Source: Candidatus Symbiothrix dinenymphae (GTDB lineage: Bacteria > Bacteroidota > Bacteroidia > Bacteroidales > Azobacteroidaceae). Taken from it: a DNA stretch of 64,000 bases. The notes beneath the pieces are model-generated. The model was not told the origin of the DNA. It worked only from the letters and a program-made list of their open reading frames with translations, and did no database searches. The stretch is taken from assembly GCA_001417715.1 (NCBI GenBank), contig BBRT01000050.1:1-64000 (forward strand), read 5' to 3'. Position numbers and translations under genes: made by a program. This document shows, piece after piece, positions 80 through 47,589 of the stretch. Within the stretch, counting starts at the first letter, position 1. Every line of letters starts with the position of its first letter.

Positions 80-87
80 TACCTTTG
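80..87 (+). promoter_or_regulatory. Promoter of leader ORF and lipoprotein gene
   Basis: TACCTTTG matches the Bacteroidetes -7 consensus. A TTTG about 19 bases upstream (57-60) can act as the -33 element. No other TAnnTTTG is visible before the lipoprotein start at 273, so its transcript probably carries a leader of about 170 bases. Confidence 0.75.
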
Positions 88-112
88 CGCCCGATTTCAA
101 AAAAGAAAAGAT

Positions 113-190
113 ATGAACAAAGTTATCAACAGGTTATCCCCCCCCCCCCCCCTATCTACTGATAATCAGCAAGTTAGGTGGTTTTATTAA
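113..190 (+). CDS. Short leader ORF containing a C15 tract (25 codons)
   Basis: An ATG lies 25 bases after the promoter motif and opens a 25-codon frame. It encodes a basic start, five consecutive prolines from the C tract, and ends at TAA 188-190, directly before a hairpin that starts at 191. I do not recognise a product. Position and size suggest a leader peptide whose translation affects the hairpin. With 14 or 17 C the frame would run into the hairpin and stop at TGA 213-215. With 13 or 16 C it would stop at TGA 160-162. Translation is not proven. It could also be a relic of a gene start. Confidence 0.4.
   Translation: MNKVINRLSPPPPLSTDNQQVRWFY
138..152 (+). repeat. Homopolymeric C15 tract
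   Basis: Fifteen consecutive C inside the leader ORF. Runs of this length are prone to slipped-strand length change, and each one-base change moves the stop codon of the leader ORF relative to the downstream hairpin. Confidence 0.9.
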
Positions 191-6029: not shown

Positions 6030-6132
6030 GTCTTTGAACCGTGATTTTCACAAGATTTTCAAGATTACCATGATAATCTATTCTCTTTCATCTTGCTAAT
6101 CTTGAAAATCTTGTAAAAATCATGGTTCAGAC
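6030..6132. repeat. Long imperfect inverted repeat between SusD and DUF1735 genes
   Basis: Arms 6030-6067 and 6097-6132 are near-complementary and contain the words CAAGATTTTCAAGATTA and GTCTGAACCATGATTTT. The right arm abuts the SusD stop codon. Related GTCTGAAC..TGATTTT words recur at 63910-64000, so this is a dispersed repeat family. It may moderate transcription between SusD and the last gene. Confidence 0.75.
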
Positions 6133-11100: not shown

Positions 11101-11288
11101 TCCGTAGTGGTGCCTGTGGTTGTTCCTTTTATATTGACCGCCACACCGGGCAGTAAGGCTCCCTGCTAATCCATTACGACACCCGCCACTTTAACTGAAG
11201 AGCCGATTTTTACCTCAATAATTTCACCCTGTGCAAATGCTGTGAGCGACAAAGCGAGTGTCAACACTATTAATATTATATGTTTCAT
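8178..11288 (-). pseudogene. SusC/RagA TonB-dependent transporter interrupted by an in-frame TAG
   Basis: From the ATG at 11288 the frame encodes a good signal peptide (cleavage after AFA), then about 20 residues, then GVVMD, a TAG codon at 11168-11166, and continues in the same frame QGALLPGVAVNIKGTTTG. This is the CarboxypepD_reg-like domain of SusC proteins. The remaining ~990 residues are intact, with the plug motif IESFSILKDASSTAVYGTRG and a full beta-barrel. Without readthrough the product is a 40-residue peptide, since no downstream start would carry a signal peptide. Homologs usually have a small polar residue or Glu at the stop. It may be a real nonsense mutation, a readthrough site or a sequence error. 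Confidence 0.85.
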
Positions 11289-11309: not shown

Positions 11310-12855
11310 TTATTCAATACTATATATGACAATTTGACATTCCCACCATTCGGAGATGTATAAATTACCTTCGCCGTCATACGAAATATCCTGCGGGTCA
11401 AGCAAAACCGACTGAAGCGGCTCTCCTCTTGGTCTTGGAGCCGGACCTTCCACGCCGAGCTTTCCGGCAACGGTGGTTACCTGCCCGTCAATTCCCGATA
11501 TTTTCCGAATCACATCGCCCTGACCGGCTATGCTGGTCCAGCTATCTTCAGCCGTAAAGTTACTTTCGCAAATGTAGAGATTGCCTTCGTCGTCCATACA
11601 CATACCCTTCGGTTGAAAGAAAAGGGCGTCTGTTAAAGCCCCGTCAACAACGCGGCCGTCCGTCGTATTTCCGGCGTAAAGCACCGCCAGTACTCCGTCG
11701 CCCCAGTTGGCTCCGGTTTTGGTGATTTTATAAATGCTGAACCTTTGGAAATAGGAAACATAAAAACAGTCTTTGAACCGGTCATACACCATGTAGGGTC
11801 CCCAACCGGAAGTCGGCAAACCCGCGATGCCTGTGCTTATCTCCTCTGTTACATTCGTATTCACGTTGTAACGTCCGAATATTTGGTCTCTATGACAGAA
11901 ATACAGCCACTCCTGAGCGGGGTCATGAGCTTTATCCATCATGACAAGCGTGCGTATATTATCTACTGTTGATACTTGACTTGGAACAGTAATTACGCCG
12001 ATATTTTCCGGCGTCCACCCTGCTACCTTTGGGTATTGGTAAACCGGATATGGAGGGTTCAGAGTCGTATTATATACGATGGTTTTATCCTCGTTCACAG
12101 CCGGTTTACCCATATACGCGTTATACTGTAAGGTGACAACCTGATTGTCAGGTCCCGATATAAAGCGCGTTCTTGCGGCCGCACCTTGATGAAACCCGAA
12201 AGTCATTACCTGTCCACCGCCAAGGGCAACAATCCCTTGTGGTTTAAAGAAGGTAGCACTCGCCAAGGGTCCATCCAAAGCGGCATTAGCACTGTTATGA
12301 TCATAGTTTCCATTGGCGTTTCCTGCCCCTGCAAACCATGAAACGGTCTCAACAGCCTTGTAGCCAAATGTCTTGGAAGCAGCGACCGCCGAGCCACCGG
12401 CTATGCTCACCTTAATTTGGTTGCTTCCACTACTCTGCTTTGGTGCAAGGCAATAAATAGCAGTACCGTTTACACTGAGCACATTTGCCTTTCTATCGGC
12501 AAAGCCGTCGTTAAACAGCACCTCCACTTGCGAGGCATCATTGCCGAAATTAGACCCGGAAATGAGCACCTTTTCCCGTATCCTGCCCGAGTCGGGCGTG
12601 AATCCGGTAACAGTCACAGGCAAAGCCGGATTGTGAGGGTCACCTCCCACCTGACCTTGCGTAAACTCGTACGTTTCCTCTTTGCAACCGTAGCTAAGAG
12701 CGAAAAGCACCGATACGAAAATCCCACTAAGGAATAACGAAATTTTTCTTCTTGAGGCTCGAAGACTTCGTGCCCCCCCCCCCCAAGAGAACGCCATGTG
12801 GTGGCGTAGTGTTTGCAAAGTTTGCAAACTTCCTGTTTTTAGATTTTTCTTTCAT
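11310..12855 (-). CDS. IPT/TIG + NHL-repeat lipoprotein with a poly-G tract near the start
   Basis: About 500 aa. After lipobox ALSYGC comes an IPT/TIG immunoglobulin-like domain (PVTVTGFTPDSGRIREKVLISG), then an NHL/beta-propeller-like region to the C-terminus. Such proteins head several SusC/D operons and are thought to bind glycans at the surface. The shared cassette ATG is at 12855, but with the G12 run (12784-12773) that frame stops early. ATG 12797 reads MAFSWGGG and is in frame with the lipoprotein at 12 G. With 11 G the 12855 start becomes in frame. So tract length selects which start works. SusC follows 21 bases later. Confidence 0.75.
12773..12784 (-). repeat. Homopolymeric G12 tract (minus strand) in the IPT/NHL gene
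   Basis: Twelve C on plus, read as G on the coding strand, directly after CTCTT. The same tract length and flanking words (GTTTGCAAACTTTGCAAA upstream, TTCTCTT next to it) occur at 47438-47449 in the second locus. Confidence 0.9.
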
Positions 12856-31471: not shown

Positions 31472-34177
31472 CTATTTGTGATTAAATGGCTTCTCCAACT
31501 TCACCACAGGTGCCTCGCCATTCAAATCCAACTTGACCGCCCCTATCCGCTCTGCACCGCCGCGCCAGCCTTCGCGGGCGTTGAAATACATCAGCAGCGA
31601 ATTTTCCCAACGCACTACGTCCAACTGATAAATAATTGCCGAGCGCCAGGGGATATTCGGGTCGGGTTTGACAATCGGGTTGCAATCGGCTTCTTTCCAT
31701 TGCAGTCCGTCGTCACTTGTCAACAGGCGAATTTCCGAGCGTGATTTGCCTTCCGCATCAATATAAATCGGATTATAAAAAGCCACATACCCTTTTCTGT
31801 AACCAAACACCTTAAAACCGCCGCAACCATAGTTTCGGAACGGCAAATTTACATCAGGCTCCAAAATAGGCTCTTCCCTTTTGATGAACGGACCCAAGGC
31901 ATTATCAGCCTCCGCACAGAAGATATTTTTTGGCTCGCCATAACCGGCATCTTTCAAGTAAACCATGCCGCCACTGTAATACATCCTGTAACGACCATCC
32001 GGCAATTGTATCACACAAGGGTTGCGTGCTTCAACGCCGCTGCCTTCGCGCTCTTTGGGCAGTTCCGGCGTAATAAGCGTAACCGGTTCCGACCAAGTTT
32101 TAAAATCTGTCGTTGTCCGTGCACGTATTACGGTGCTATATTTTTTTCTCATTTCCTGGTCTTTCATATAGCTCGTGCTTGCCGTATAATACTGTATCCA
32201 CCGGTCGCTATCGCAGAAAATGTATTGTATGCCGATTTCTCCTTCTTCGTGGGAAACATCCTTCCAGTGCAGTCCGTCATCTGAAGCGGAATGAAAAAGC
32301 CAAGTATGCCATTTTGTATCATGCGAAAAGCCATGAAAAAAGGCATGCCATTTGTCGTCAAATTTACCGGGCGTCAAAATTTGCGGGTCGCCGATAACCA
32401 ATTCCGGCAGCCCATAAACTTCGGGGTCTATCAGTGGATTTTCAGGCAGGTCTCTCCATCTTTTCTCTCCCCAATCCAGGAAAGTGGGTTGAACCGGACC
32501 ATGCTCAATACCGCGTTTCTCCCATTCTGCCAGAAAATAATCCAGCGCTTTCAGAAAACGCTTGTAATCCTTTTTTTCGGGCGCCGTCCATCCCACTTCG
32601 GCATAAGCGGCTATGCGGGGATAGACCCTGTAATTCAAGGCATTTTCGTCGGGCACCAAATATGTCCACAGCTGACAACCCAATCCCAGCACCTTTTTTT
32701 TCTGCTCTTCCGTCAGACCTTCGGGCACAGGGGCGAATGAATAAGCTTTTTCCAAAGAGATGCTTTTATGGGTATAATCCAGATATGTAAATCGAGCATT
32801 TGAATTGACGACATCATACCCATCTTCTACGGCTTTTTTGACGAGGGACGGGTTTCCCTCCCAAAATTGAACAACGGCACCGGGGGCAAGATGCTTTTCG
32901 GTAGCGTGGTCATCATCTTTTCCCCATCCGTGGATATTCGCACCGGTTATTTCGTTCCAACCCATGAGGCGCCGTCCTTTGGAAGCAAGCCATTGCGACA
33001 TTTTATTGGTAAAGTCAATATGCAGTTCGGCAGGCGTTTTGATACCCTTCTCTTTCATATATTGGCTGACGGCAGGTGAATTTTTCCAATGATTATAATC
33101 CACCTCATCGCCACCGAGATGAATGACCTTACTCGGAAATAAAGCGATTACCTCCGTGAGCACATCTTGCAAAAACTCAATTACTTTGGGGTCTGTGACA
33201 TCGAACACATACGTTCCCATGAGATTGTCGGGTGTTTTTTTTGTACCTTCTTTTGGTATTCCCAGCCACGGATAGATTTCAATCACCTCACTGGCATGTG
33301 CCGGCATTTCTATTTCAGGCACAATGGTGATGTGGCGGGCTGTGGCATAAGCAACCACTTCCTTGATTTCTTCCTGCGTATAGAAACCTCCCTGGGGCTT
33401 GTCCACAAAACCACTTTCATTACCGGTGGCGCCAAATCCTTTTCTATCAGGTGAAATGCGGTAAGCACCGATTTTTGTCAGTTCGGGATACTTTTTGATT
33501 TCGATGCGCCAGCCGGGCATATCCACAAGATGCCAGTGAAAAACATTCATTTTTAACTGAGACATATTATCCAAAAGCCTGCACACAGCCTCTTTCCCCT
33601 TGAAATAGCCGGATTCATCCAGCATTAAGGAACGCCAGCTCAAAGCCGGATAATCCGTAATCGTCCCACATTGTAGAGACGTGGCGTGCCACGTCTCTGC
33701 CGCCTGTCCCGATGCCGCCGATGTCGCTGATGATGAAACCGATGCCGCCGATGCCGTCCCAAGCAACTGCCGCAAAGTCTGTATCCCATGCAAAATCCCG
33801 GCAGGCGCATTGGCTTTAATGACAATGCCTTTCGCCTGAATGTCTAAAATATATCCCTCCGGATGTTTGGGCAATACGGCGGCATCTAACACGAGGGTTA
33901 TGTCGCCTGATTTTTTGCCTTTTTGCAAGATGGGGTTTACGGCGGCGGAGACGTGGCGCGCCACGTCTCTACACAGTGTTGCTTCGTTTGCCAATTTTGG
34001 TGGGAACGCGATTGTTGGGTTATCTTTCAATTTGAAAGAACCGTTGGTGTATGCCACTTGCTGCGGTTCGGGCAGGATGGAATACGGGCGGATTTCGTCT
34101 TGACCGTAGGCATTAAAGCCTGACAGAAGGCATACTGCTAAAAAACACTTACTTAATACTTTCATTTTTGTTTTCAT
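31472..34177 (-). CDS. GH20 beta-N-acetylhexosaminidase fused to a five-bladed beta-propeller domain
   Basis: 901 aa with a signal peptide. The GH20b N-terminal domain is followed by the catalytic barrel with HLGGDEVD (around residue 355, the conserved Asp-Glu pair) and AEVGWTAPE. From ~580 a second domain begins, with VIGDPQILTPGKFDDKWHAF and repeated blades (RYRMYYSGGMVY; YRKGYVAFYNPIY), resembling GH43/GH32-like propellers. The first domain should release terminal GlcNAc or GalNAc. The propeller may be catalytic or binding. Two copies of the GAGACGTGGC palindrome are read in frame near residues 70-77 and 161-167, the second after a Ser/Ala-rich insert. It has its own promoter. Confidence 0.9.
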   Translation of the reverse strand: MKTKMKVLSKCFLAVCLLSGFNAYGQDEIRPYSILPEPQQVAYTNGSFKLKDNPTIAFPPKLANEATLCRDVARHVSAAVNPILQKGKKSGDITLVLDAAVLPKHPEGYILDIQAKGIVIKANAPAGILHGIQTLRQLLGTASAASVSSSATSAASGQAAETWHATSLQCGTITDYPALSWRSLMLDESGYFKGKEAVCRLLDNMSQLKMNVFHWHLVDMPGWRIEIKKYPELTKIGAYRISPDRKGFGATGNESGFVDKPQGGFYTQEEIKEVVAYATARHITIVPEIEMPAHASEVIEIYPWLGIPKEGTKKTPDNLMGTYVFDVTDPKVIEFLQDVLTEVIALFPSKVIHLGGDEVDYNHWKNSPAVSQYMKEKGIKTPAELHIDFTNKMSQWLASKGRRLMGWNEITGANIHGWGKDDDHATEKHLAPGAVVQFWEGNPSLVKKAVEDGYDVVNSNARFTYLDYTHKSISLEKAYSFAPVPEGLTEEQKKKVLGLGCQLWTYLVPDENALNYRVYPRIAAYAEVGWTAPEKKDYKRFLKALDYFLAEWEKRGIEHGPVQPTFLDWGEKRWRDLPENPLIDPEVYGLPELVIGDPQILTPGKFDDKWHAFFHGFSHDTKWHTWLFHSASDDGLHWKDVSHEEGEIGIQYIFCDSDRWIQYYTASTSYMKDQEMRKKYSTVIRARTTTDFKTWSEPVTLITPELPKEREGSGVEARNPCVIQLPDGRYRMYYSGGMVYLKDAGYGEPKNIFCAEADNALGPFIKREEPILEPDVNLPFRNYGCGGFKVFGYRKGYVAFYNPIYIDAEGKSRSEIRLLTSDDGLQWKEADCNPIVKPDPNIPWRSAIIYQLDVVRWENSLLMYFNAREGWRGGAERIGAVKLDLNGEAPVVKLEKPFNHK
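33676..33697. repeat. GAGACGTGGC palindrome in GH20 gene, copy 1
   Basis: GAGACGTGGC-GT-GCCACGTCTC, read as ETWHATS on the coding strand, next to a GATGCCGCC-type microsatellite at ~33710-33760. Confidence 0.9.
33948..33969. repeat. GAGACGTGGC palindrome in GH20 gene, copy 2
   Basis: GAGACGTGGC-GC-GCCACGTCTC, read in another frame as RDVARHVS on the coding strand, in the GH20b domain. Confidence 0.9.
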
Positions 34178-34206
34178 TTTTACTCTTTTTATTTATTAAA
34201 GTTTCG

Positions 34207-34214
34207 CAAAGGTA
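34207..34214 (-). promoter_or_regulatory. Promoter of GH20-SpoIID operon
   Basis: TACCTTTG on the minus strand in the 48-base gap after GH3, so GH20 and the SpoIID-like gene can be expressed apart from the upstream glycosidases. Confidence 0.7.
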
Positions 34215-34225
34215 CATATTTTTTT

Positions 34226-36520
34226 TTAGTCCTTCACTGAAATTGTTTTCTTCAGCAGGATATTGTCGGAAGCGGTTCCTATTTGCAATGTAAAATCGCC
34301 GGGTTCGACCACTTTTTCCATTTTGGCATTGTATAACGCCAATTCTGCTACCGGAAGTTCAAAGTGGACGGTTTTTGTTTCTCCGGCTTTAATGAGCAGT
34401 TTTTCAAAGCGTTTCAATTCTTTGATGGGCGTTACCACAGAGCTGATTTCATCGCGTACATACAACTGCACCACTTCTTTGCCGTCCAGCGTGCCGGTGT
34501 TGGTGATGTCCGCTTCAATGTCTATGACGCCATCCTTCGTTAGCACATCCGATTTCACGCGCAGGTTTTTATACTCAAATGTGGTATAGCTCAAACCTGT
34601 GCCGAACGCCCACAAAGGGTCGGGAGTTGCGAACACATAATCCATTCCGGGTCGCTCCGGTGCGCCGGGTTTTTTGTAATATCCCTTGTCAGTAGGAAAA
34701 TGATTGTAGAAAACGGGGAGATGTCCTGTGCTTTGGGGAAACGACACATTGAGTTTTCCCGATGGATTCACTTTGCCAAACAGGATTTCGGCAATCGCAG
34801 TGCCCTGTTGTTCACCGCCATACCATTGCACCACAATGGCAGGAATATGCTCTTTTTCCCAAGGAATTGCCGATGGTTTTCCTGCCACAAGCACCATTAC
34901 AACAGGCTTTCCTGTAGCATGGATTGCTTTGATTAAATCCTCCTGTGCGCCGCTCAGTGCTATATCCGACAAATCACGACCTTCGCCGCTAATCGCGCTG
35001 GGAGCAGCGGTACTGAGCGGGTCGGGAGCAGAGCTGCTGGCACCGACAAACAAAACGGCTACATCGCTCTTTTTTGCAGCATTGACGGCTTCCGCAATGC
35101 CGCTTTTGTCTTGCAATTGAATTTCGCAACCTTTGGCATAATTGATTTTTATCTTGCCGCCCGTTATCGCTTGTATCCCTTGCAAAGGTGTTACTCCAAA
35201 GGCATTGTCATTCGTCCAAGAATAACCGCCGAACTGTATTTGGTCGGCGTTGGGACCAATCACAGCGATGGAGCGTATCTTGTCTAATTGCAAGGGAAGC
35301 AGCCTGTTGTCGTTTTTCAGAAGGACTGCCGATTCGCGGGCTACTTCCAAAGACAAGCGGATGGCTTCGGGCGTATGAACGACTTTTTTAAGATTTGCTA
35401 TGTCGGGGATATTGGGTTTGTCGAACATGCCGATGGCAAACTTCGCCCTGAGGATTCGTTCTACGCAACGGTCGATGTCGCGTTCCGAAAGTTGTCCGTT
35501 TTTTACCAATTCATTCAAATGCCTGTAACAGTCGCTGGCGACCTCGCTATCAATACCGGCAAGCACGGCTTGACGCGCTGCATCAGCCGGACCGGCGGCT
35601 GTTTTATGAAACGAATAAAGCAACTCAACCGACATCCAGTCAGACGACACATAGCCGCGAAAACCTAATTCACCACGCAAAATATCGTCCATAAACCGTT
35701 TGGAAGAAGCAACAGGAACGCCGTCGTAAGCACTGTAAGGATTCATAATGCTCAACGGCTGACATTCGCGAATGACATCCCTAAAAGGTTTAAGATAAAG
35801 AGAATACAAATCACGGTCGCCACCGGCAACCGATGCCAAATTAAGTCCGCCGCTCGGACTGCCGTGCGCCACATAATGTTTCGGCGTACAGATAATATTG
35901 TGTGCGTTAAAAGCCTTGACAAAAGCAATGCCCATGCGTCCCACCAGATAAGGGTCTTCCCCGTACGTTTCCTCTACGCGACCCCATCTTAATTCTCTTG
36001 CCAAATCGAGGTCGGGTGAGAGTACCTGGTCAATTCCTGCCGCTTTACATTCGGATGCTATGGTGAGAGCGGCTTGATTTATCAGTTCCGTGTTGAAGGT
36101 GCTGCCGAGCGCAATTGCCTGTGGAAATACCGTAGTGCCCGCTTGCTGCAGTCCATGCAAGGCTTCCGCAGCACAGAAGACAGGAATACCCAGCCGGTTG
36201 CGGCTGTTCATGTACTGCCGGAACAGCGCGATTTTTTGGGCGGATTCTTCTACCGCTGATTTTTCGGTAATCAGTATGCCATAACTCATGCCATTCAACT
36301 TGGAATGCACTTTGGCAGTGTCTATCGTGCTGCCGGTTGAGAACTGCGCCATGAACAAATCCTGCATTTGCGCTGTTTTTTCTTCGAGCGTCATACGCTT
36401 CAACAAATCTGCCACACGCGCTTCCACCGGTTTAGACGCATCTTTATAAACAGGGAGTCCGCTATTTCCCGAACACGCGGCGACTAACAGGGTAGTCAAA
36501 ACAACTAAACTTTTTTTCAT
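34226..36520 (-). CDS. GH3 beta-glucosidase-like enzyme
   Basis: 764 aa with a lipoprotein-type signal (VAACSG). The GH3 N-terminal barrel has the nucleophile motif GFRGYVSSDWMSVE (Asp around residue 290). The alpha/beta sandwich follows (AVIGPNADQIQFGGYSW), then a fibronectin III-like C-terminus. It removes beta-linked sugars from non-reducing ends, but exact specificity cannot be read. It starts 12 bases after GH97, so the two are co-transcribed. Confidence 0.93.
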   Translation of the reverse strand: MKKSLVVLTTLLVAACSGNSGLPVYKDASKPVEARVADLLKRMTLEEKTAQMQDLFMAQFSTGSTIDTAKVHSKLNGMSYGILITEKSAVEESAQKIALFRQYMNSRNRLGIPVFCAAEALHGLQQAGTTVFPQAIALGSTFNTELINQAALTIASECKAAGIDQVLSPDLDLARELRWGRVEETYGEDPYLVGRMGIAFVKAFNAHNIICTPKHYVAHGSPSGGLNLASVAGGDRDLYSLYLKPFRDVIRECQPLSIMNPYSAYDGVPVASSKRFMDDILRGELGFRGYVSSDWMSVELLYSFHKTAAGPADAARQAVLAGIDSEVASDCYRHLNELVKNGQLSERDIDRCVERILRAKFAIGMFDKPNIPDIANLKKVVHTPEAIRLSLEVARESAVLLKNDNRLLPLQLDKIRSIAVIGPNADQIQFGGYSWTNDNAFGVTPLQGIQAITGGKIKINYAKGCEIQLQDKSGIAEAVNAAKKSDVAVLFVGASSSAPDPLSTAAPSAISGEGRDLSDIALSGAQEDLIKAIHATGKPVVMVLVAGKPSAIPWEKEHIPAIVVQWYGGEQQGTAIAEILFGKVNPSGKLNVSFPQSTGHLPVFYNHFPTDKGYYKKPGAPERPGMDYVFATPDPLWAFGTGLSYTTFEYKNLRVKSDVLTKDGVIDIEADITNTGTLDGKEVVQLYVRDEISSVVTPIKELKRFEKLLIKAGETKTVHFELPVAELALYNAKMEKVVEPGDFTLQIGTASDNILLKKTISVKD

Positions 36521-36532
36521 TGTGTATATTAT

Positions 36533-38470
36533 TTAAACAGGTTTGATTACCGCCACATATCCTCCTGCCACAGCCAATTTCACTTTCAAGGGTTTGCCGG
36601 CTTCGATGGTCTGAGTTGTTTTTGCGATATTTTTCGGATTTTTGTTGGCATCCTTGGCATCTGCCCAGATTTCGATGGTGTATTTTCCGGCAGACAGGAA
36701 TTTCGTGTTGAGTGTGATTTCCTTTTCCACGCTGTTGTTTAGCACTCCAATAAACCAACTGCTGCCCGATTGCTTGGCAATGGCGACATATTCAGTGGGA
36801 GAACCGCCTAAGAATTTGATGTTGTCCCAAATGTTTGGAACGATTTTCAGAAAGTCGGCGCCCGGCTGTCCCCGAATAAATTTGGGATGGTCGCACACCA
36901 CCATGTATGGACTTTCGTAAACCACGAATTTTGCCAATTCAGCGGCGCGAGTATCGGCTACCAAAGTCGGCGACTGCTGTCTAAAGTTGCTTTGAGTGAC
37001 GTTGTTAAATCCGCCCGGCGTATAATCCATCCCACCGGTCAACATGCGGGTAAAAGCCAGTTTGACATTGTGTTCGGGACTCATATTGTTGGTGAATTTG
37101 TAATATTCGCTCCCCATTACGCCTTCCCGCGTCAGCAGGTTAGGGTAAGTGCGGATGATGCCGTCGGGTTTATTGGCACCGTGAAAATCAACCAATATGT
37201 GGTTGTCCGCAGCACAGCGGACGATGTCGTGAAGCCAGTTCACCATTTCCTGGTCGTCGCGGTCTATGAAATCAATTTTAACCCCTGCAATGCCCCATTC
37301 TTTGTATAAGGGGAATGCTTTTTTGTAGGCGTCGTTGCGATTCACGTCCGCACTGTATATCCACACCCAGATGCGCACATTTTTCGATTTGGCATAAGCC
37401 AATATTTCAGGCATATCGACGTGGGGGGCAGGCTGACAGATGTCGGCTTCCGGACGGTTGTATTGTCCGTACCATTGTGCATCCACCAACATATAGGGCC
37501 AGCCCATTTCGGAAGCAAAGTCGATAAATTCTTTGATGACAGGCATTTCCATTTTTATTCCGCCGCTCCACCAGTTATCCCATGCGCTTATGCCGGGTTT
37601 TATCCAGGATGGGTCTGCGATGGCGCAGGGCGGATTCAGGTTTTGAATGATTTCCGATTCAATCAGCGTTCCGGGCGTGTCGCCAATCATGATAACGCGC
37701 CAGGGCGTTTGGGCATCGTCGGCAAAACGAACTTTCACGCCTTGTTCGTCTTCGCCGGGCAGGGGTGCCAACTTGGTCGTCAGTTGGTTTTTCTGCCCGT
37801 TGGTGCCGAGATAAAACGCTGCGAAATCATTGATTTCCGCTTCGGTGATGGCCACCCAGCAGTCGTCGGCGTACTTCATCAGAAACGGGAGACCGGCAAT
37901 GGTTTTTTCCGATACATAGTCCAATTTCCTTGCCTTAAATTCGTCTTCCTGGAAAGTGGCGTATCCACCGTATTCCACTACCCAGGCATCGGGGTTGCCG
38001 GGAATGGAGAAAGTGGTCAGTTCTTTGGTTAACTGACGGTCGCCGATGCGTTCGCTGCGATACAGTTTGTACCGGAAAGCCACGCCATCGTCATATACGC
38101 GGAAAATAATGTCCAACCGGCGCCGTTTGTCCGCTTTTTCTGCCGTAACCAACGTCAGTTCATTGTAAGTATCCGCAATCTGTGCGTGTTTGCTTTTAAC
38201 TACGGGCTTCCATATTTCATGGTGGGAAGACGGAGTAGCCTGCACCACGTGCAAGCCTTTCTGCAAATCGTTTTCCCCTTTGAAACTGAATCCCAAATCG
38301 GATTTTTCAACAATATTACGTCCATTAAAAGTAACGGAATATTGAATTTGTTCGCCCGCCTCAACCTGAACCCGAATAGACTTGTCGGGAGAAGTCACCG
38401 TATAGGGCTGAGCATTTAATAATGGTGTCGCACAAAGCAACGCTGAGATAAGAAAAAAATGTCTGTTCAT
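36533..38470 (-). CDS. GH97 alpha-glycosidase
   Basis: 645 aa with a signal peptide cleaved after LLNAQ. The N-terminal beta-sandwich (YTVTSPDKSIRVQVEAGEQ) leads into a TIM barrel with WDNWWSGGIKME and GVKIDFIDRDDQE (around residue 398). In GH97 an aspartate in this last motif is the nucleophile of the retaining alpha-galactosidase branch, whereas SusB-type glucosidases invert and use glutamates. That would favour a retaining alpha-galactosidase here (inference). It lies 20 bases after the AAA-ATPase gene and has no promoter of its own. Confidence 0.92.
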   Translation of the reverse strand: MNRHFFLISALLCATPLLNAQPYTVTSPDKSIRVQVEAGEQIQYSVTFNGRNIVEKSDLGFSFKGENDLQKGLHVVQATPSSHHEIWKPVVKSKHAQIADTYNELTLVTAEKADKRRRLDIIFRVYDDGVAFRYKLYRSERIGDRQLTKELTTFSIPGNPDAWVVEYGGYATFQEDEFKARKLDYVSEKTIAGLPFLMKYADDCWVAITEAEINDFAAFYLGTNGQKNQLTTKLAPLPGEDEQGVKVRFADDAQTPWRVIMIGDTPGTLIESEIIQNLNPPCAIADPSWIKPGISAWDNWWSGGIKMEMPVIKEFIDFASEMGWPYMLVDAQWYGQYNRPEADICQPAPHVDMPEILAYAKSKNVRIWVWIYSADVNRNDAYKKAFPLYKEWGIAGVKIDFIDRDDQEMVNWLHDIVRCAADNHILVDFHGANKPDGIIRTYPNLLTREGVMGSEYYKFTNNMSPEHNVKLAFTRMLTGGMDYTPGGFNNVTQSNFRQQSPTLVADTRAAELAKFVVYESPYMVVCDHPKFIRGQPGADFLKIVPNIWDNIKFLGGSPTEYVAIAKQSGSSWFIGVLNNSVEKEITLNTKFLSAGKYTIEIWADAKDANKNPKNIAKTTQTIEAGKPLKVKLAVAGGYVAVIKPV

Positions 38471-38490: not shown

Positions 38491-40092
38491 TTAATTTATT
38501 TTTAATTGTTCTATCCTGCAACCAACCTCTTTCCCACTGAATGCAATACCCAGCAGAATCACTTTCCGGTCAAGAAACGGCTCATAATACCGCTTCTCGC
38601 GGATTTGCGCGATAGCTTGGTTGAGCAAAGTGTCGGTTTCCGTGGTAGCATGGTATTTCAACTCTACCACTATCGCTACTCCCTCTTGCTGCAGCACGGC
38701 ATCTATACGCCCCCGATTAGTCATCCTTTCGCTCTGAATATTGAAACCAAGCATGGTCATCCACATTTGAAAGATGTTGTGATAAAAGGCTTCACTTGCT
38801 AAATTTTCCGCTTCCGCTTCCGCTTTGTCTTGCGCCTTGGATGGCTGCAAAGTGTAGGGAACATCGGCAAGCATGATACGCATGTTATTTGTAAAGCCTT
38901 TCGCATCGAAAGCAAGGATTTGTTGCAACATTTGTTGTCCAAGTGCCGACATTTTCGAAAGGGGGTAGTTGGTATATGCACTTAACAAATGCTCCATCAG
39001 CGACTCTTTTACCTCCATATTGGGTACTTCCAATGTATATTGAGAACTTTTACCCACTCGTTGTTTGTTTTTGATGGTCAAGTAGCCGGTTTGAAATAAT
39101 AGGGGAATATCTTCCAACTCATCAGGGTCGTAGCTGTTGAATGCCGTCTGACCTGCAATAATCGGTTCCAATACGGTTTTAGCAAGACCGTGTTTTTTGA
39201 GCCGATTGATAAGGAAAGTGGGCGTACCTGTATCAAACCAGTAATTGGAAAAGTCTTTCATTTTGAAGAACAACAAAGTAGAAAACGGATTATAAACCGG
39301 CGTTTTACCATCCCAGGAGTAGCCATCATACCAAGCGCGAATATCTTCCAATAAACTCGCCTTAGTCTGCATGAGATGCTCTGCTGTTTTGTCAATATAT
39401 TCCGAAAAGTCGCTTTCCAGTTCTTCCTGTGTGTAACCACAAATAGAGGCATATCCTTCGTCTAACGTAATGTCTTCGAGACTGTTCAACGCTGAAAATA
39501 TTGACACTTTGGCAACTTTTGTTACGCCTGTCATAAAAACAAATTGCAAATGGTTGTCGGTGGCTTTTAGTATTTTATAAAAGCTTTGAAGAAATTGGCG
39601 AACACCACCCGCTTCAGGTTGATTCATTGTATCCAATATCGGGCTGTCGTACTCGTCAATAAGCACAACCACTTTATTGCCTTTTTTACGGTGCAATGAT
39701 TCTATCAATTCAGAAAAACAATCGGAGGCGTATTCTGAAACAAGTTTTATTTTCTCTAATTTAGCCTGCCGTTTCAGAAATGATGACATACTGCGTTCCA
39801 TCTCTTCTTTACTATCGTGCTTGATATCTGTCCAGTCTATCCGAATAATAGGATAGCGCTGCGTCCAGTCCCATTTATCATAGATATAGAGACCTTCAAA
39901 CAAATGCTGACTGCCTGTGTAAAGCTCCTCCAAGGTGCTCACAAGGAGCGACTTCCCAAAACGGCGCGGACGTGAAAGAAACACGATGTTTGAACTTGTA
40001 AGTTGGAGTATTTCTTTCGTTTTATCCACATACAAACAACCGCCATTGCGCAACTTCTCAAACGACTGAATACCAATTGGTAATTTCTGCAT
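38491..40092 (-). CDS. AAA-ATPase-like protein with C-terminal PD-(D/E)XK nuclease-like domain
   Basis: 533 aa. It begins LPIGIQSFEKLRNGGCLYVDKT, with an atypical Walker A (RPRRFGKSLL) and Walker B VVVLIDEYDSPI, as in the AAA-ATPase_like family. The C-terminal domain has GRIDAVLQQEGVAIVVELKY, a D...ExK nuclease-like core. Bacteroidetes genomes carry many copies of unclear role, possibly selfish or defence-related. It has its own promoter yet leads the GH97-GH3 pair, an unusual arrangement inside a glycan locus. Confidence 0.9.
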   Translation of the reverse strand: MQKLPIGIQSFEKLRNGGCLYVDKTKEILQLTSSNIVFLSRPRRFGKSLLVSTLEELYTGSQHLFEGLYIYDKWDWTQRYPIIRIDWTDIKHDSKEEMERSMSSFLKRQAKLEKIKLVSEYASDCFSELIESLHRKKGNKVVVLIDEYDSPILDTMNQPEAGGVRQFLQSFYKILKATDNHLQFVFMTGVTKVAKVSIFSALNSLEDITLDEGYASICGYTQEELESDFSEYIDKTAEHLMQTKASLLEDIRAWYDGYSWDGKTPVYNPFSTLLFFKMKDFSNYWFDTGTPTFLINRLKKHGLAKTVLEPIIAGQTAFNSYDPDELEDIPLLFQTGYLTIKNKQRVGKSSQYTLEVPNMEVKESLMEHLLSAYTNYPLSKMSALGQQMLQQILAFDAKGFTNNMRIMLADVPYTLQPSKAQDKAEAEAENLASEAFYHNIFQMWMTMLGFNIQSERMTNRGRIDAVLQQEGVAIVVELKYHATTETDTLLNQAIAQIREKRYYEPFLDRKVILLGIAFSGKEVGCRIEQLKIN

Positions 40093-40188: not shown

Positions 40189-40887
40189 TTACGGTGCAGG
40201 AATAACCAATGGTCGCTCTAACCATATCTCGTCTAATATCTCCATATTGCTTACTTTCGGCTTCACGCGGTACTGCATGTGCAGGGTATCGCCGACTGCA
40301 ACATTCGCTATGAATGAGGGCTGTTGCGTAGTACCGTCAAGCGTGACTTGCGCACCGCCTCGACCGACGGAATAAACCAATTTGTCGAGATAGGTCAGCA
40401 AAATGGACGTTATATTCTGCTTCCATTCTACCTTTACGTCACCACCACCGAGATGCTCTATAACCGGAGCCGGAATAACCAACAGTTCCTTGTCGGCGGC
40501 GGTAAAAGGTGCCTGAGACACTTCCATCGGCAAAGACTTGTTACCGTGCTCATCCATGGAAGAGATGGTGAACTTGTAGATGGCGGGTTGCGTAAGACCG
40601 GTGATTTTTACCGACGAGCAGACGCTGTCAATCACCAATACTGTATCGCCATATTCAACAACTGTTTTCGTTGCTCGAGCCAGATGTATTTGGCTCGCAG
40701 GCACGTCTCGTCCCACATTGTTCAACAAGTCTATCACTACATTCTCGTAACCGGTATATGCATCCGCCTTATCGAATTTTGCCGGATATACGGTTTCCTC
40801 TGTGACGAAATCTTTAAGAGAGTCGCCCATATCGCTACACGAGCCTAATAACAGGGCTCCCAAAACAAAAAATGCTATTCGTTTCAT
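40189..40887 (-). CDS. SusC/D-locus lipoprotein, DUF4998-like
   Basis: 232 aa with lipobox LLGSC. YPAKFDKADAYTGYENVVIDL and a fibronectin-like ITGLTQPAIYKFTISSMDEHGNKS resemble DUF4998, an accessory surface lipoprotein found after SusD genes. The C-terminal ~80 residues look like a second beta domain. Probably glycan-binding. It follows the DUF5000-type gene by 37 bases. Confidence 0.7.
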   Translation of the reverse strand: MKRIAFFVLGALLLGSCSDMGDSLKDFVTEETVYPAKFDKADAYTGYENVVIDLLNNVGRDVPASQIHLARATKTVVEYGDTVLVIDSVCSSVKITGLTQPAIYKFTISSMDEHGNKSLPMEVSQAPFTAADKELLVIPAPVIEHLGGGDVKVEWKQNITSILLTYLDKLVYSVGRGGAQVTLDGTTQQPSFIANVAVGDTLHMQYRVKPKVSNMEILDEIWLERPLVIPAP

Positions 40888-40924: not shown

Positions 40925-42208
40925 TCACTGTTTTATACCATACAGGGTTATTTCCGAAGGACAATCATGTGTACGCCCCCCGAGGAAATCGGCGATCGCC
41001 TCGTACCTGAACCAACGGGTCGGTTGTGTATAGTGCGGGTCATCAGGGTACATGATAACTTCATCTCCCGCATGTCCCTGTCGGGAGAGTTCGGCATCGT
41101 TCCCTACCGGAATAGGAATTGTACGTTGCTCCCCGATACGTTCCCATCCGGTCTCGTCCCATTTCCATGGCGATAGACTCGGGTCTCCGGCACCGGTCCA
41201 CACATACATATTGTAAGTACCCACGTTATATTGACCATAATAATTCCCCCTGCTCAATTCGGGATTGGCTTCGTTGCCCAGATGCCTCTGATGGGTAACG
41301 ATACGGCTCAGTTTGTAAGTGGCACCCAAATCAATGATGAAGTCCCATGGGCTTCCTGCTCCGTCACGACCAACACCGCCCGTGTTCAGATAGTTGCGAG
41401 ACATCGAACCATAGTCAACAATTCCGTCTATTACGAAACGGTTTGAACCCTCAGCCATGTCTCCGTTCACCATAGGGATACCTCCAATGGTATCATTTGC
41501 ATTAGGCAGTTTCCAATCTGTTTTGGGAATCACCACGTCCTGCTGCAGTGCAAGCTGCGGTTTGTCGAAGGTTGGCGACACATTACCATACATATCTCCC
41601 ACATATACGCTCACATCCACTGTTGTAAGGTCGGTCAGGTTGATAAACCGTTGTTCAGAGGGACGCTTGGAGGTAAGCACTACGGTGGTTTCGCGACCGA
41701 CGCCTTGCGAGGTATAGTTGAGTGTCACATACACATTTACCAGTGGTGTCGGCTCTACTATATTTTTCCATTTCACTAACACTGAGTTAAACCCCGGTAC
41801 TACGGATATGGAATCACGAACCTGTAAAACAGGCGATTTTAACGGGACCACATTTTCCGAAACGACAGTCGATTTATTTCCCGCCCTGTCCGTAGCATAC
41901 AGCCGGACAGTTTGTTCACCCGTCATCCCTAAAACGTCCAACGAATCAATGAAATAAGAGGCTGAGAAGCGTCTTACATCGCCATTGGCGGCTGTATATT
42001 CAGCATCAATACTCAGCAGGTCTTTGTCGGAAGGAATTTGATAATAGAACCTCACACCACCGTTGAGCGGCAATCTACCTGTCACTGTGGGAGGATTAGG
42101 CGCAACACCATCGTCCGAACCGATAGTGAGCCTGTCCGACTCCTGGCAGGCATAAAAACCCGCCACCGCAAGAAGCAATAAAATTGCTGTTTTCCTAAAA
42201 TTATTCAT
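40925..42208 (-). CDS. SusC/D-locus lipoprotein, DUF4959-DUF5126-DUF5000 type
   Basis: 427 aa. Signal peptide with lipobox FYAC. Two fibronectin-like domains (roughly 30-130 and 130-230, DUF4959/DUF5126-like) precede a C-terminal discoidin-like domain (ITHQRHLGNEANPELSRGNYYG; FRYEAIADFLG). Such triple-domain proteins accompany SusC/D pairs for host or plant glycans and probably bind carbohydrate on the cell surface. It lies between SusD (61 bases) and the DUF4998-like gene. Confidence 0.75.
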   Translation of the reverse strand: MNNFRKTAILLLLAVAGFYACQESDRLTIGSDDGVAPNPPTVTGRLPLNGGVRFYYQIPSDKDLLSIDAEYTAANGDVRRFSASYFIDSLDVLGMTGEQTVRLYATDRAGNKSTVVSENVVPLKSPVLQVRDSISVVPGFNSVLVKWKNIVEPTPLVNVYVTLNYTSQGVGRETTVVLTSKRPSEQRFINLTDLTTVDVSVYVGDMYGNVSPTFDKPQLALQQDVVIPKTDWKLPNANDTIGGIPMVNGDMAEGSNRFVIDGIVDYGSMSRNYLNTGGVGRDGAGSPWDFIIDLGATYKLSRIVTHQRHLGNEANPELSRGNYYGQYNVGTYNMYVWTGAGDPSLSPWKWDETGWERIGEQRTIPIPVGNDAELSRQGHAGDEVIMYPDDPHYTQPTRWFRYEAIADFLGGRTHDCPSEITLYGIKQ

Positions 42209-42269: not shown

Positions 42270-44321
42270 TCACCATCCCGGATTTTGAATAAGATTTCCA
42301 TTGGTATTCATTTCCGTGGTAGAAATTGGCCACAAATAGTCCTTAATGGAAAACCTCCTCATCTGCCTCGGTGCGAGCACGAAGAATGACGCTGCATCAT
42401 TGCCTGTAATGTCCCATCCCATTATGTTGCTCGTAAATTCGATGTGTGCTCTTTTGTGGCGGTACATGTCCCAGAAATGCTGTCCTTCGAAAGCCAGCTC
42501 CACAGCTCTTTCCTGCAGGATGATTTCGCGCAACCCATCCTGTCCTGTGTGTTTGCCCGGCGTTTTGGCTGCTGCGCTGTTCCATGCTGTTTCCACATCC
42601 GGTATGCCCGCTCTTCTGCGCACGAGGTTGATGGCGTTCAGCACTTTTTGACCCGACGGACCCGACGGACCCTCATACTCGTTCCATGCCTCGGCCTGCA
42701 TCAGGTACAGGTCTGCCAAACGTATAATAGGAAGAGGCGTTCTGACCGCTCGTATATCGAATGCCGAAGTTGATTCGGGATGAATTAATTTTTGAATGCC
42801 TATTCCTGCCCTAAGACGTCGGTTGTTTGCATTGGGCTGCATATTTCCGGGAGTACCGGCGTAAAACAGGGTTGGAATACGAACACCGTGCGAACGCCAA
42901 TATCCACCGGTGATACCCAAATTGGCATAGAAACGCGGCTCGCGATTCAGATACATTTCCGGTATTTCCACGTTCGGCTGTAGATAACCACGGACGGCAT
43001 CATACGCACCGGAGCCATTATCCAGCGGAGTTGTTATCCGGTTGAACATGGTTGTTTGGTTAAAGGTTAGGTCTTCATCTATCGGGAGCCCTTTACTCGT
43101 ATAAAATCGTTCCATCACATTATAGGTGCCGCTTATATTGTTAAAGGATCCGTTCTGTTCACCGAGAAGATTTCCGGTAGCTCCGGGAGGTGCGTATGCG
43201 GAAGGCAATCCAATTTGGACACCACCTATTAATCCTTGTTCCCAAGCACCCCAGCCACCATACGACGTAAAAACGTATTCCGATTGTCCCCAGAGCAGTT
43301 CTTCGTTCCATGGGTCAGGAATTATCATGCGTAAATCGTACAATGTCTTCATTCTGTCAGGTTGTAGCCTAAAATCTTCCCTGTCGTAAGAATAAGCAAC
43401 TCTTTTGCAAGTATATAAGTCTTTTCCGGCTAATTTTGCCAAGTCAATCGCCTCATCTATGGCATCACCGGCAGCTTTCCATTTCTCCTTGTCATACGTT
43501 TGCGGGAAAAAGTGCTCGTTGTTGTGATTGCGAAAAGTGCTGTAAAACTCGCTATTGCCATTGAAAAACGGACTTGCTCTGAAAAACAGCACTCTTGCCT
43601 TAATAGCGGCAGCACCTACACGGTCTATCTGTCCCAAATCAGCACCAACCCGTTGTTCTTCCAAATTGTCGATGGCATCATTCATGTGACCGAGGATAAA
43701 ATCAAAACACTCGTCTATTGTGGCACGGTGTGGATAGAGTTCGTCATCACCGGCGGTTGGCGTTGTTTCGCTCTTTTTCAACACAATAGGACCCGTTTGC
43801 CGCACCAGGAGGAAATTGTAATAACCGAGCAAGAATTGCGCCTGCGCTTTCCAGTCTTTTTTTTCCGAATCGCCCATATCGCTCACCTTGTCAATATTGG
43901 ATAAAAAGACATAGATGCTGTTAATTGCCTGGTATAAACTCGGTACATTAACATTAGTACCCCAAGTAGCAGGACGCGGGTCAGGCGATTTCATACCTGA
44001 CCAGTAACTCATGAGGGGAAGCGTGGCACTGTTACTTCCTTCCATTACATGCTGGTAGATAGCGCTGGCAATGTAGTTGTCCATATCGGGATACGCCAAG
44101 TATTCATCTCCGAGCAACCATGTGCTGAAGTGCAAGTTGGGATCAGGTGGCAAATAGAAATACAATTTTGCCAGTGCGTTATACGCATCTTTCTTTGCCG
44201 CGAAAATATCATCCAACGTCATAGTATTGTCGGGGACAATGTCTAAATAATCTGAGCACGCCGGGAAAATGAACATCGCGGCGATGATTGTTTTATAAAT
44301 ATTTTTTTTCATATTATTCAT
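42270..44321 (-). CDS. SusD-family outer membrane lipoprotein
   Basis: 683 aa. Lipobox FPAC, then SDYLDIVPDNTMTLDDIFA, typical of SusD mature ends. The C-terminal region has ERAVELAFEGQHFWDMYRHK and finishes NLIQNPGW. It partners the SusC 18 bases upstream. Length and motifs are complete, so this gene itself is intact even if its SusC partner is switched off. Confidence 0.93.
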   Translation of the reverse strand: MNNMKKNIYKTIIAAMFIFPACSDYLDIVPDNTMTLDDIFAAKKDAYNALAKLYFYLPPDPNLHFSTWLLGDEYLAYPDMDNYIASAIYQHVMEGSNSATLPLMSYWSGMKSPDPRPATWGTNVNVPSLYQAINSIYVFLSNIDKVSDMGDSEKKDWKAQAQFLLGYYNFLLVRQTGPIVLKKSETTPTAGDDELYPHRATIDECFDFILGHMNDAIDNLEEQRVGADLGQIDRVGAAAIKARVLFFRASPFFNGNSEFYSTFRNHNNEHFFPQTYDKEKWKAAGDAIDEAIDLAKLAGKDLYTCKRVAYSYDREDFRLQPDRMKTLYDLRMIIPDPWNEELLWGQSEYVFTSYGGWGAWEQGLIGGVQIGLPSAYAPPGATGNLLGEQNGSFNNISGTYNVMERFYTSKGLPIDEDLTFNQTTMFNRITTPLDNGSGAYDAVRGYLQPNVEIPEMYLNREPRFYANLGITGGYWRSHGVRIPTLFYAGTPGNMQPNANNRRLRAGIGIQKLIHPESTSAFDIRAVRTPLPIIRLADLYLMQAEAWNEYEGPSGPSGQKVLNAINLVRRRAGIPDVETAWNSAAAKTPGKHTGQDGLREIILQERAVELAFEGQHFWDMYRHKRAHIEFTSNIMGWDITGNDAASFFVLAPRQMRRFSIKDYLWPISTTEMNTNGNLIQNPGW

Positions 44322-44339: not shown

Positions 44340-47300
44340 CTAAAAGGATACTTGCAATCCCACGTTAAACCTCCTGTTAAGCGGATAGCCAAGTCCGTTG
44401 CCGCCGAGTTCAGGGTCCCACAATTTGAAGGCACTGAACGTAGCCAGGTTTTCGGCACTGAAGTATAGTCGGCAACCTTGCATCTTGATTTTTGCTATTG
44501 CCGGAAAGTTGTAGCCGAGTTCTATTGACTTCAAGCGCAGGAACGAGCCGTCGCGCAACCACCAGGTGGACGAAACCGTATTATTGGGAATTGCCTCCAT
44601 CGACAAGCGGGGCCAGGCAGCATGTACATCGGGATTGGCTTCCGTCCATGAATTTTCGCCTATGAAAGAAAGCGCACCACGGTTGTTGTAGAACGGTGAA
44701 ATAGCTCCGGGGTCAATGAAAAATGATACCCTTGCATTCCCTTGAAAGAAGAAGGAAAAATCAAATTTCTTAAACCCTGCCGACAATCCGAAACCGTACT
44801 GAATTTCCGGCACCGATGGGTAGCCGAGGGGAATTTTGTCGTTAGTATCTACTTTGCCATCACCGTTAATGTCGCTATATTTGATGTCGCCCGCCATGAT
44901 ATTTCCTCCTGCTCCTACGGTCTGTGGGGGCGAATTGCGTATTTCATTCTCGTCCACAAAGAGCCTTTCGGCTGCATAGCCATACAGTTGACTGTAGTTA
45001 CGCCCCACCTGGCTCAAATATTTGTCCTTATAATTCGGCTCATCCAATTTAAGGTATTTATTGACGGAATATGTCAAGTTGCCCCGTCCGGTGAGCCAGA
45101 AATCCTTGTTGAAAAAATGCTGATAGTCGATGGAACCGTCAATTCCCTGCGTTTGCAGTTCGCCGACATTGCCTTTCGGCACGACTTCCAGCCCTGCTGA
45201 TGCGGGGAGATTATTTCTGGACAAATAAATGTTGCTCCGGTTATCGCGGAATATATCCACCTGCAATTTCAAGTCTGTGCCTCTGAAAAAGCCCAATTCC
45301 AGCCCAAGATTGTATTTCGTGGAAACTTCCCAGGTGATGTCGGGATTGGCATAACGGGCGATGCTATATCCGTTGTATGTATTACTTAACGAATTACCCC
45401 ACCGGTATGGACTGCCGGTCGTGTTAATATTCGACAAGAAAAAGAACCTCTCCTCCCGTGTGGCGATGGCGTCGTTGCCCACCTGTCCGTAAGTAAATTT
45501 CAGTTTCAACAAACTGATGGATTCTTTCATCGACTCCCAAAACGCTTCGTTGGAAGCCAACCATCCGGCACCTATGGAGGGGAAAAATCCGAATTGCTTA
45601 TCTCCTGTGAACTTTTCGGAACCATTGTAACCAAATGCAAATTCGGCAAAATAGCGGTTATCGTAATCGTAGGTAGCCCTGCCGGAAATACCAGCATTCC
45701 TTTCGGGCAATGTTTTATAGATGGTACCATTATTACCGTCTGTCAGCACGGACTCCTCCGCCAGAGCCACAACCATCGCTCCTACGGAATGGTTGCCGAA
45801 TTGACGGTCCCAGTTCAGCCGTCCTTCGTAATAATAATGGGTAGTACCTTCGCGAGTGCCTTCCACATTGCCAAGAAAAGCCTGTCCTGTAGTAGGGTTG
45901 AGACCCAGCAAAGTGTATTGCTTCGTAATCGGGTCGTAGGTATTCAACGAATAGTGATATGGAGTTAACTTACGTTTGCTGGAAGCAAGCCCCCATACAT
46001 TGGCAGAAACTTTTGCCTGAAATTTTAATCCTTCGGTAAGGAAATCCAAATCCTGCAGCAGTGTCGCCTGTGTGATAATCGTACTTTCGTCCTGATTGTT
46101 ATATCCCTTCACCATTTCGGCATACGGGTTGGCGCGGAGAGTAGTACCGGATGAATAAACACTTCCAAACAGAGTGTGTCTTGTGGAGCGATTGGCTTCG
46201 TCCGGCTCATATACAGCGGGAAAATCCACCGGATTGCTACCCATCACCATGTCGAAGATGTCGCTTGCCGAGGTGTAGGGTCCGGTATATCTTTCGAAAC
46301 GTCCCTGAATACGGGTGTCCAGTGTGGTGGTTTTGCTCAGTTTGAAAATGACATTACTCCGCAGGTGGAACCGATTGATATCGATATTGTTGTTGTAATT
46401 GTTCCGACCGTCCACTTTCAGCAAACCCGTTTCGTTTTCGTATCCTCCGGCAACATAGTAGGTAGCCACCGTGCCACCGCCTGAAACGTTCAGGTTGGCT
46501 TTGGTGTTTGTGGTCTGCTTCTTGAACAGTGCATCATACCAATTGACATTGGGATAAATCATCGGATTTTCTCCCCGAGCGGTGGAATAGATTTTCTGCT
46601 CGCTGTATTTTGGAGTCGCATTGGGGTTGCGTGACAACTGTGTTTGATTGCTCAAACGCATATAAGCCACCCCATCCATCAGTTCAGGCATTTGTGTAGG
46701 CGTCGCCACATTTACGTCCACCCTTGCGCTGATTTTTGCAGGACCCTCACGTCCCGACTTGGTAGATACCAGAATGATACCATTAGCACCTCTTGCACCG
46801 TAGAGCACGGTTGCCGAAGCGTCTTTCAACACGGAGAAACTCTCAATGTCGTCAGGCTGAATGCGGGCAAGGTCGTCGGTGGTCACCTCAAAGCCGTCAA
46901 TAAGAATCAACGGGTCTTTTTTGTAGCCGAAGGTAGTAACGCCGCGCACAAAGAACTTGGCATTGTCGGCACCCGGCTCACCCGTCGTCTGGTAGGAGAT
47001 AACCCCCGGAATCTTACCGGCAAAAGCGGCGGTAAGGTTGGAGGCAGGCACCCTGAGGTCGGAGGCTTTAATTGTCTCAATGGAGGCAATCACGCTACTC
47101 TTCTTCTGCTTGCCGAAAGCAACCACAGTCACTTCGTCCAACTCATTCGACTTGGGCTTGAGCGGAATCACAAGACTCGTCTTGTCGCCCACCTCCACAG
47201 TGTAGAGGTCATACCCCAAAAACGTAACGTCCAAAACATCCGTCGGCGAAACGTCGATTTTGAACGAACCATCCAAGTCGGTAGCCACTCCACGAGTGCT

Positions 47301-47520
47301 CCCTTTGATGGTGATGTTGACTCCGGGCATTCCATCCCCGGCTTCATCGTACACGAAACCGGTAACGGTCTTTGTCCGTGCCGACGCATTTGTCACTTGC
47401 GGCGCCTCCTGGAGTGCTTCAGCGCGAATGTTTTGCGCCCCCCCCCCCCAAGAGAATGCTGCTTAGAAGCAAACTTTTTGCAAAGTTTGCAAACTTCCTG
47501 TTTTTACACTTTTTCTTCAT
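44340..47520 (-). CDS. SusC/RagA TonB-dependent transporter with poly-G phase tract in its signal peptide (OFF as sequenced)
   Basis: From ATG 47520 the leader encodes MKKKCKNRKFANFAKSLLL, SSILL, then a G12 run (47449-47438). With 12 G the frame hits TGA within ten codons. With 11 or 14 G it reads on through GGGAQNIRAEALQEAPQV into TNASARTKTVTGF and the full 1018-residue transporter. That gives a plausible signal peptide cut after RAEA. The remainder is intact: carboxypeptidase-regulatory-like domain, plug (IESFSVLKDASATVLYGARG) and barrel ending in VGLQVSF. No alternative start downstream of the tract would supply a signal peptide. The family imports oligosaccharides with SusD and TonB energy. 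Confidence 0.88.
47438..47449 (-). repeat. Homopolymeric G12 tract (minus strand) in SusC signal peptide
   Basis: Twelve C on plus between GCG and AAGAGAATG. ATG 47520 is 124 bases upstream of the open transporter frame at 47396, one base too many for in-frame reading. Confidence 0.93.
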
Positions 47521-47581
47521 AAAAATAACTTTTAATGTTTAACAAATTTTTTTGTGAATTGCCACTATAACAATTCGGCGG

Positions 47582-47589
47582 CAAAGGTA
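47582..47589 (-). promoter_or_regulatory. Promoter of the second SusC/D operon
   Basis: TACCTTTG on the minus strand with a TTG about 20 bases upstream. It is identical in context to the promoter at 12916-12923 and lies 55 bases after the lipA stop. Confidence 0.8.

Follow-up and report, generated by a model that had tools for sequence, protein, structure and literature searches.

Phase variation by frameshifts in simple repeats is a known class of mechanism, with HmbR, PilC, Opa and OipA as representatives. The phase variation of HmbR and the frameshift in pilC are cited in PMC5084427, and repeat-driven switching within the signal peptide has been described for oipA, outside of the Bacteroidota (PMC10564699). 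The Neisseria proteins HmbR and HpuA are haemoglobin receptors with tracts of the poly-G type, and opa is a multigene family in which each gene has its own repeat. In Bacteroides, phase variation of SusC/SusD is known to occur by DNA inversion (Nakayama-Imaohji 2009, cited in PMC11868660 and PMC12632263), and in these two recent reviews inversion is the only mode of SusC switching given for Bacteroides. In the open-access literature searched, no report was found of the repeat mechanism in Bacteroidota, of homopolymer or poly-G switching of SusC, or of such a repertoire in the genus studied here. In the original prediction, too, no case of homopolymer slippage in a SusC signal peptide was known to be established.

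The G12 tract and the reading frames of the window

The window, i.e., the whole stretch of 64,000 nucleotides that was analysed, contains on its minus strand a SusC gene for which a poly-G tract inside the signal peptide had been predicted to act as a slipped-strand ON/OFF switch. The following features were identified:

47581 to 47589, minus strand (L132 3142-3150): Bacteroidota-type -7 promoter element TACCTTTGC, fits TAnnTTTGC
47450 to 47520, minus strand: leader with start codon, KKK n-region and hydrophobic core (MKKKCKNRKFANFAKSLLLSSIL + TT), from frame reading; conserved and coding across 21 loci
47438 to 47449, minus strand: proposed switch (G12 tract), in the ON state when n = 2 mod 3 (11, 14), from sequence and frame arithmetic
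47397 to 47437, minus strand: post-tract segment, read as (G)AQNIRAEALQEAPQ at ON lengths; c-region of the signal peptide; cleavage site not program-predicted
44340 to 47396, minus strand: SusC/RagA TonB-linked outer membrane protein, intact body of 1018 aa (TIGR04056 with 968.8 bits; Plug, CarbopepD_reg_2)
42270 to 44321, minus strand: partner lipoprotein SusD, which follows SusC after 18 nt (SusD_RagB 7.5e-47, SusD-like_3)
40925 to 42208, minus strand: accessory protein with DUF4959 and DUF5000 in SusE/F position (domain matches)
40189 to 40887, minus strand: DUF4998 accessory protein (domain match)
31472 to 38470, minus strand: GH97, GH3 and GH20 glycoside hydrolases (domain matches)

The curated TIGR04056 cut-off is 368.25 bits, and the match covered positions 1-981 of the 981-position profile, so that membership in the SusC/RagA family is met. 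With the SusD gene directly adjacent, the locus also qualifies as a SusC/SusD pair. The glycoside hydrolase genes are plausible members of the same utilization locus, but this membership is inferred; an unrelated-looking ORF (38491-40092) separates them from the DUF4998 gene.

It was verified by re-reading the sequence that the ATG at 47520 opens a leader of 71 nt, which is followed by exactly 12 G (47449-47438) and then by CGCAAAACATTCGCGCTGAAGCA. With n = 0, 1 or 2 mod 3 G, the leader product has 34, 43 or 1027+ aa, respectively, the last value reaching to the end of the fetched SusC. As assembled, with 12 G, the leader frame thus comprises 34 aa and ends at a TGA, while with 11 or 14 G the leader joins the 1018-aa SusC without any stop codon, reading LLGGG(G)AQNIRAEALQEAPQ; only lengths of n = 2 mod 3 do so. 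Three or four glycines between the hydrophobic core and the cleavage region should be tolerated, as inferred from sequence alone, and hence both 11 and 14 G can represent the ON state. The leader start, the stop at 12 G and the joining at 11 or 14 G had been predicted and all held, as did the RAEA-type cleavage region, for which the sequence was read without a cleavage-site program. One criterion for slipped-strand phase variation, a simple repeat inside a reading frame whose unit changes join or break that frame, is therefore met for this SusC gene.

Two alternative starts were considered and rejected. In the SusC frame of the G12 gene a TAA is situated five codons upstream of the tract, and an upstream start can therefore not rescue the gene. 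The first start past the tract is the GTG at 47396, and no signal peptide follows the tract; exported SusC from a downstream start, which would have refuted the original prediction, was thus looked for and not borne out. By frame arithmetic the locus as given is OFF, as had been claimed, and it is without a rescue start. The accumulation of G-runs in the window exceeds chance, with 19 observed 8-G positions versus 1.25 expected and none of 100 shuffles reaching as high a number.

The original prediction was based on one gene only and missed a second cassette in the window (12855-12773) as well as about 30 copies throughout the genome. The second cassette comprises the following features:

12785 to 12855, minus strand: second copy of the leader cassette (MKEKSKNRKFANFANTTPPHGVL), from sequence match
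12773 to 12784, minus strand: second tract, also G12; the leader is fused to a TIG-domain protein when n = 2 mod 3, while at 12 G the frame is instead that of an internal ATG (12798), from frame reading
11310 to 12772, minus strand: TIG-domain protein gene (TIG PF01833 8e-11; lipoprotein nature by inspection)

The TIG-domain gene stands upstream of a further SusC/SusD pair (8178-11288 / 6132-8153), and a paralogous tract-led copy is present at L079, so that two cassette copies in the genome lead a TIG-domain protein. The second tract is preceded by two starts in different frames, ATG 12798 and ATG 12855 (both on the minus strand). It is possible that the TIG-domain protein is made from the former at 12 G and from the latter at 11 or 14 G, with differing N-termini that would precede its apparent own lipoprotein signal. 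The second SusC of the window (ATG 11288) has an ordinary tract-less signal peptide and an in-frame TAG at 11168-11166 (minus strand) in its first domain, where its paralogue L366 (G000:C96) reads through.

One cassette in front of many SusC genes

The genome of the window (G000) has a size of 3.52 Mb in 346 contigs and is 91% complete. It contains about 30 copies of a cassette that consists of promoter, leader and tract. With the 201-bp cassette ending in the tract as BLAST query, 37 matches were obtained, about 20 of them near full length and most of the latter with a terminal G-run; in total, the genome has 71 G/C runs of 9 or more. In a 32-copy alignment the block CTACCTTTGCCGC, which contains the -7 element, is conserved to about 90% or more, and conservation extends into the leader up to TCTT. 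That TACCTTTGC acts as a promoter is inferred from the known consensus.

The SusC cut-off was passed by 31 stretches of the genome. At least 19 SusC genes are tract-led, 14 with an assembled tract leader (one of which, L125, has an interrupted tract) and five that lie at the edge of a contig or whose tract has disturbed surroundings, and in all 19 the tract is placed at the end of the hydrophobic core of the signal peptide. Among the SusC genes with a visible start, these 19 are accompanied by five with ordinary tract-less signal peptides, including MKKVVKVTIAALLLAFANPVSAQ and that of the second SusC of the window, and by one with a decayed tract (L365). The five tract-less genes represent an internal control, showing that SusC leaders in this genome do not carry G-runs as a rule. 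Uninterrupted assembled SusC tracts have 11-14 G. Some members of the family are broken, i.e., L109 is frameshifted and L066 and L073 are short remnants. Several contigs (C9, C10, C35, C216, C248, C286, C293, C312, C319, C330 and C335) terminate at leader tracts or no more than about 150 bp away from them, as is expected if the assembly breaks at variable or repeated G-runs.

Loss of mismatch repair was rejected as a cause for G000, because MutS (872-aa frame) and MutL (621-aa frame) are both intact; there is thus no hypermutator background to explain the variation, and poly-G slippage does not need one. MutS is split in the assembly of G009, and MutS or MutL is missing or partial in the incomplete genomes G006, G007 and G008, which are hence uninformative in this respect.

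Throughout the genus, five of 41 species use the tract-led SusC design en masse (G000, G006, G007, G008 and G009). A total of 68 tract-led SusC genes were read in these five genomes, 31 in frame and 37 out of frame, and their uninterrupted assembled tracts have 9-15 G. Each of the 68 bodies was followed as far as the retrieved segment extended, over at least about 460 aa; outside of G000 the SusC label rests on N-terminal motifs, and some genomes are only 66-85% complete. G009 carries the same cassette as G000, and its contig 106 has the same SusC start as BNTU01000106 (Bacteroidia bacterium MS499-82), where the tracts of L134 and L149 are G12 each. The tract-led SusC genes of G006, G007 and G008 belong to another subfamily; their leaders (MRKTFKNFANLLLLSGAFV-GGGG-ANHLRAESPQ) are related and have the tract in the same place. 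ATGA followed by a G-run at leader distance was found 24 times in G000, 34 in G007, 24 in G008, 19 in G009 and 20 in G006, versus 3-6 times for the reversed pattern. Other congeners mostly had 0-4 leader and G-run patterns; leader tracts number one to a few in G010, G025 and G026 and are absent from many species. No comparable tract set was present in any other of the 393 Bacteroidales genomes sampled, and in the few of these with several matches they were mostly contig ends or intergenic repeats.

Further G-runs of other kinds were observed. A second tract family is found in the window at 80-175 (plus strand) and also at L069, L072, L108 and L130, with a TACCTTTGC-type promoter, ATGAACAAAGTTATCAACAGGTTAT, C15 and the palindrome-like CTGATAATCAGCAAGTTA. 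Since the lipoprotein-like ORF that follows (273-1037) has a start of its own, the C15 tract is part of an upstream ORF or leader. In G400, which belongs to another family, a similar palindrome is found next to a G-run. An intergenic repeat in four copies (L081, L088, L093 and L104) consists of CATCCCTACGGGATGCTGAAA, G(9-12) and CGATTCTATTTTCTACCGA. Within other long coding frames of the genus, G-runs were seen at L201 (G001:C5:658889-658956), L217, L221, L279 and L283, by inspection in a chromate-transporter-like leader (G001) and in membrane-protein or glycosyltransferase-like ORFs (G007, G008). These may be further switchable genes, a possibility that rests on sequence alone.

Orthologues, coding constraint and frame occupancy

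The original prediction had proposed to compare tract lengths in related genomes, and both lengths and states were found to differ between orthologues. L119 (G14, ON) and L167 (G12, OFF) have bodies with 98.8% identity, L086 (G14, OFF) and L169 (G13, ON) are 98.4% identical, and L234 (G11, ON) and L316 (G12, OFF) are 94.6% identical. Thus a second criterion for slipped-strand phase variation, a repeat number that differs between near-identical genes of related genomes, is met by L119/L167 and L234/L316.

The differences at the three codon positions were determined for 21 loci and amounted to 0.150/0.142/0.299 in the leader, 0.194/0.098/0.262 in the post-tract segment and 0.280/0.205/0.472 in the SusC body, which was free of internal stops in 20 of the 21. 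Indels in leader and post-tract segment comprised whole codons only. The excess at third positions and the whole-codon indels on both flanks indicate that the sequences before and after the tract are both read, in frames that are joined only by an ON length. Close pairs, including OFF genes, had dN/dS values of about 0.01 to 0.28, showing that out-of-frame SusC genes are under purifying selection. Therefore, a third criterion, that the gene stays intact and subject to selection while OFF, is also met.

In the clade of G006-G008, 26 of 44 tracts were in frame, compared to an expectation of one third (p = 6e-4), while the share in the clade of the window (5 of 24) did not deviate from this expectation; the shares of the two clades differ from one another (Fisher p = 0.005). 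The in-frame excess in the former indicates that assembled tract lengths carry a biological signal. The p-values are approximate, because related loci were treated as independent in the ON/OFF counts.

The proposed switch, its rivals and known systems

Slipped-strand phase variation of SusC/SusD glycan importers is the best explanation, and a likely one. It builds on the tract, its frames, the cassette family, the coding constraint and the differences in length and state between orthologues, which are all shown. With 68 tract-bearing SusC genes of five species in both frames, these orthologue differences and the constraint, the comparative evidence supports the original slipped-strand reading and speaks strongly for a real switch. 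That slippage is the cause, that living cells switch reversibly and that SusC protein and glycan uptake are affected is inferred, without reads, clones or expression data. In the proposed mechanism the G-run would be the switch of a contingency locus, and slips during copying would add or remove one or a few G. At the right count (11 or 14 at this locus), leader and SusC body would be translated as a single protein whose Sec signal peptide works, and the importer would arrive at the outer membrane. At other lengths translation would stop after about 34 or 43 codons and exported SusC would be absent; SusD and later genes may drop by polarity, which had also been predicted and remains an inference. 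With the cassette ahead of about 19 SusC genes and two TIG-protein operons, a population would become a shifting mosaic of glycan importers.

Several points speak against such a switch. No population was seen to contain a mixture of lengths, in the absence of read, clone or expression data. Poly-G lengths in assemblies may be wrong by one, and tracts form the ends of several contigs. The 5 of 24 in-frame tracts in the window's own clade by themselves fit random lengths. Some orthologous pairs differ also in the leader, so that cassette exchange adds to the length differences.

As one alternative, recombination could be the main switch, with cassette exchange among copies (gene conversion) bringing in a new tract length. 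In its favour, different leaders are found on orthologous bodies (L070/L181, L125/L177 and L205/L234), and at L177 and L183 upstream flank and body indicate different partners. Cassette and body distances in G000 showed no significant correlation (r = 0.19; 209 of 2000 permutations as high), and the mean distance was lower for cassettes (0.175) than for bodies (0.373). Cassettes that are more alike than bodies, uncorrelated distances and swapped leaders and flanks suggest recombination among the copies. However, L119/L167 and L234/L316 have nearly the same leader and yet differ in tract length, the correlation comprised 12 loci only, and exchange alone cannot account for the upkeep of a pure G-run. 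As the main switch recombination is therefore unlikely; as a second process it is suggested by the data, albeit weakly tested with these 12 loci.

A further alternative is mending at the RNA level, where slippage of RNA polymerase or ribosome on the G-run would yield some full-length SusC at any length, and the tract would set the expression level instead of an ON/OFF state. Transcriptional slippage can arise at long homopolymers, and the purifying selection on OFF-length genes is as expected if they are expressed. On the other hand, in-frame lengths are over-represented in one clade, and the frame thus matters there, although expression data are lacking. This explanation appears improbable, but graded expression by RNA-level slippage is conceivable and not excluded.

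Sequencing or assembly errors, with real tracts always of 11 or 14 G and a gene that is simply ON, are very unlikely. Poly-G is error-prone, and tracts of 15-18 G with disturbed sequence occur at contig ends. However, out-of-frame lengths were found at 37 of 68 loci in five assemblies, pure error does not give the non-random frame occupancy of one clade (26/44, p = 6e-4), and a G-run in the same place of dozens of genes would be left unexplained. A decaying gene family, with the tract as neutral junk and out-of-frame SusC genes as pseudogenes, is all but excluded, because, despite the few broken members (L109, L066 and L073), dN/dS of 0.01-0.3 leads to rejection of simple decay, the 3-kb frames are intact in out-of-frame genes, and leader and post-tract indels are whole-codon only.

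Slipped-strand phase variation thus remains the preferred reading. A bolder version, which may as well prove wrong as right, is a genome-wide, opa-like switchboard in a genus of insect-gut Bacteroidales: one promoter-leader-tract cassette would have been copied in front of some 20-30 SusC or lipoprotein genes per genome and be exchanged by recombination, with importers independently gated by poly-G slippage and bodies and switches reshuffled. Phase variation in Bacteroidota is known mostly through inversions of DNA. If slippage is true, it would be a second route in this phylum that acts directly on SusC importers, and at the scale of most SusC genes of a genome, in uncultured, apparently termite-associated gut symbionts. 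Many importer combinations would then coexist in clonal populations, with consequences for niche partitioning and for phages, for which SusC may serve as a receptor; annotation pipelines would drop out-of-frame SusC genes as pseudogenes.

The proposed switch shares its targets, SusC/SusD outer membrane importers, with the Bacteroides inversion systems. The latter depend on the flipping of DNA by a site-specific invertase, whereas here each gene is proposed to be switched by a frameshift in a homopolymer; a search for inverted repeats or invertases was not performed. As in oipA of Helicobacter pylori and opa and pilC of Neisseria, the repeat is situated in the region encoding the signal peptide, and a frameshift would abolish export. 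However, oipA and opa use CT or CTCTT repeats, and the proteins encoded by all three are adhesins or a pilus protein in other phyla, whereas the genes described here encode SusC importers. The switch resembles that of Neisseria HmbR (and HpuA) in that a frameshift in a G-run would control TonB-dependent uptake across the outer membrane. The receptor family is a different one, and in Neisseria one or two genes are switched without a shared promoter-leader cassette, compared to about 20 genes here.
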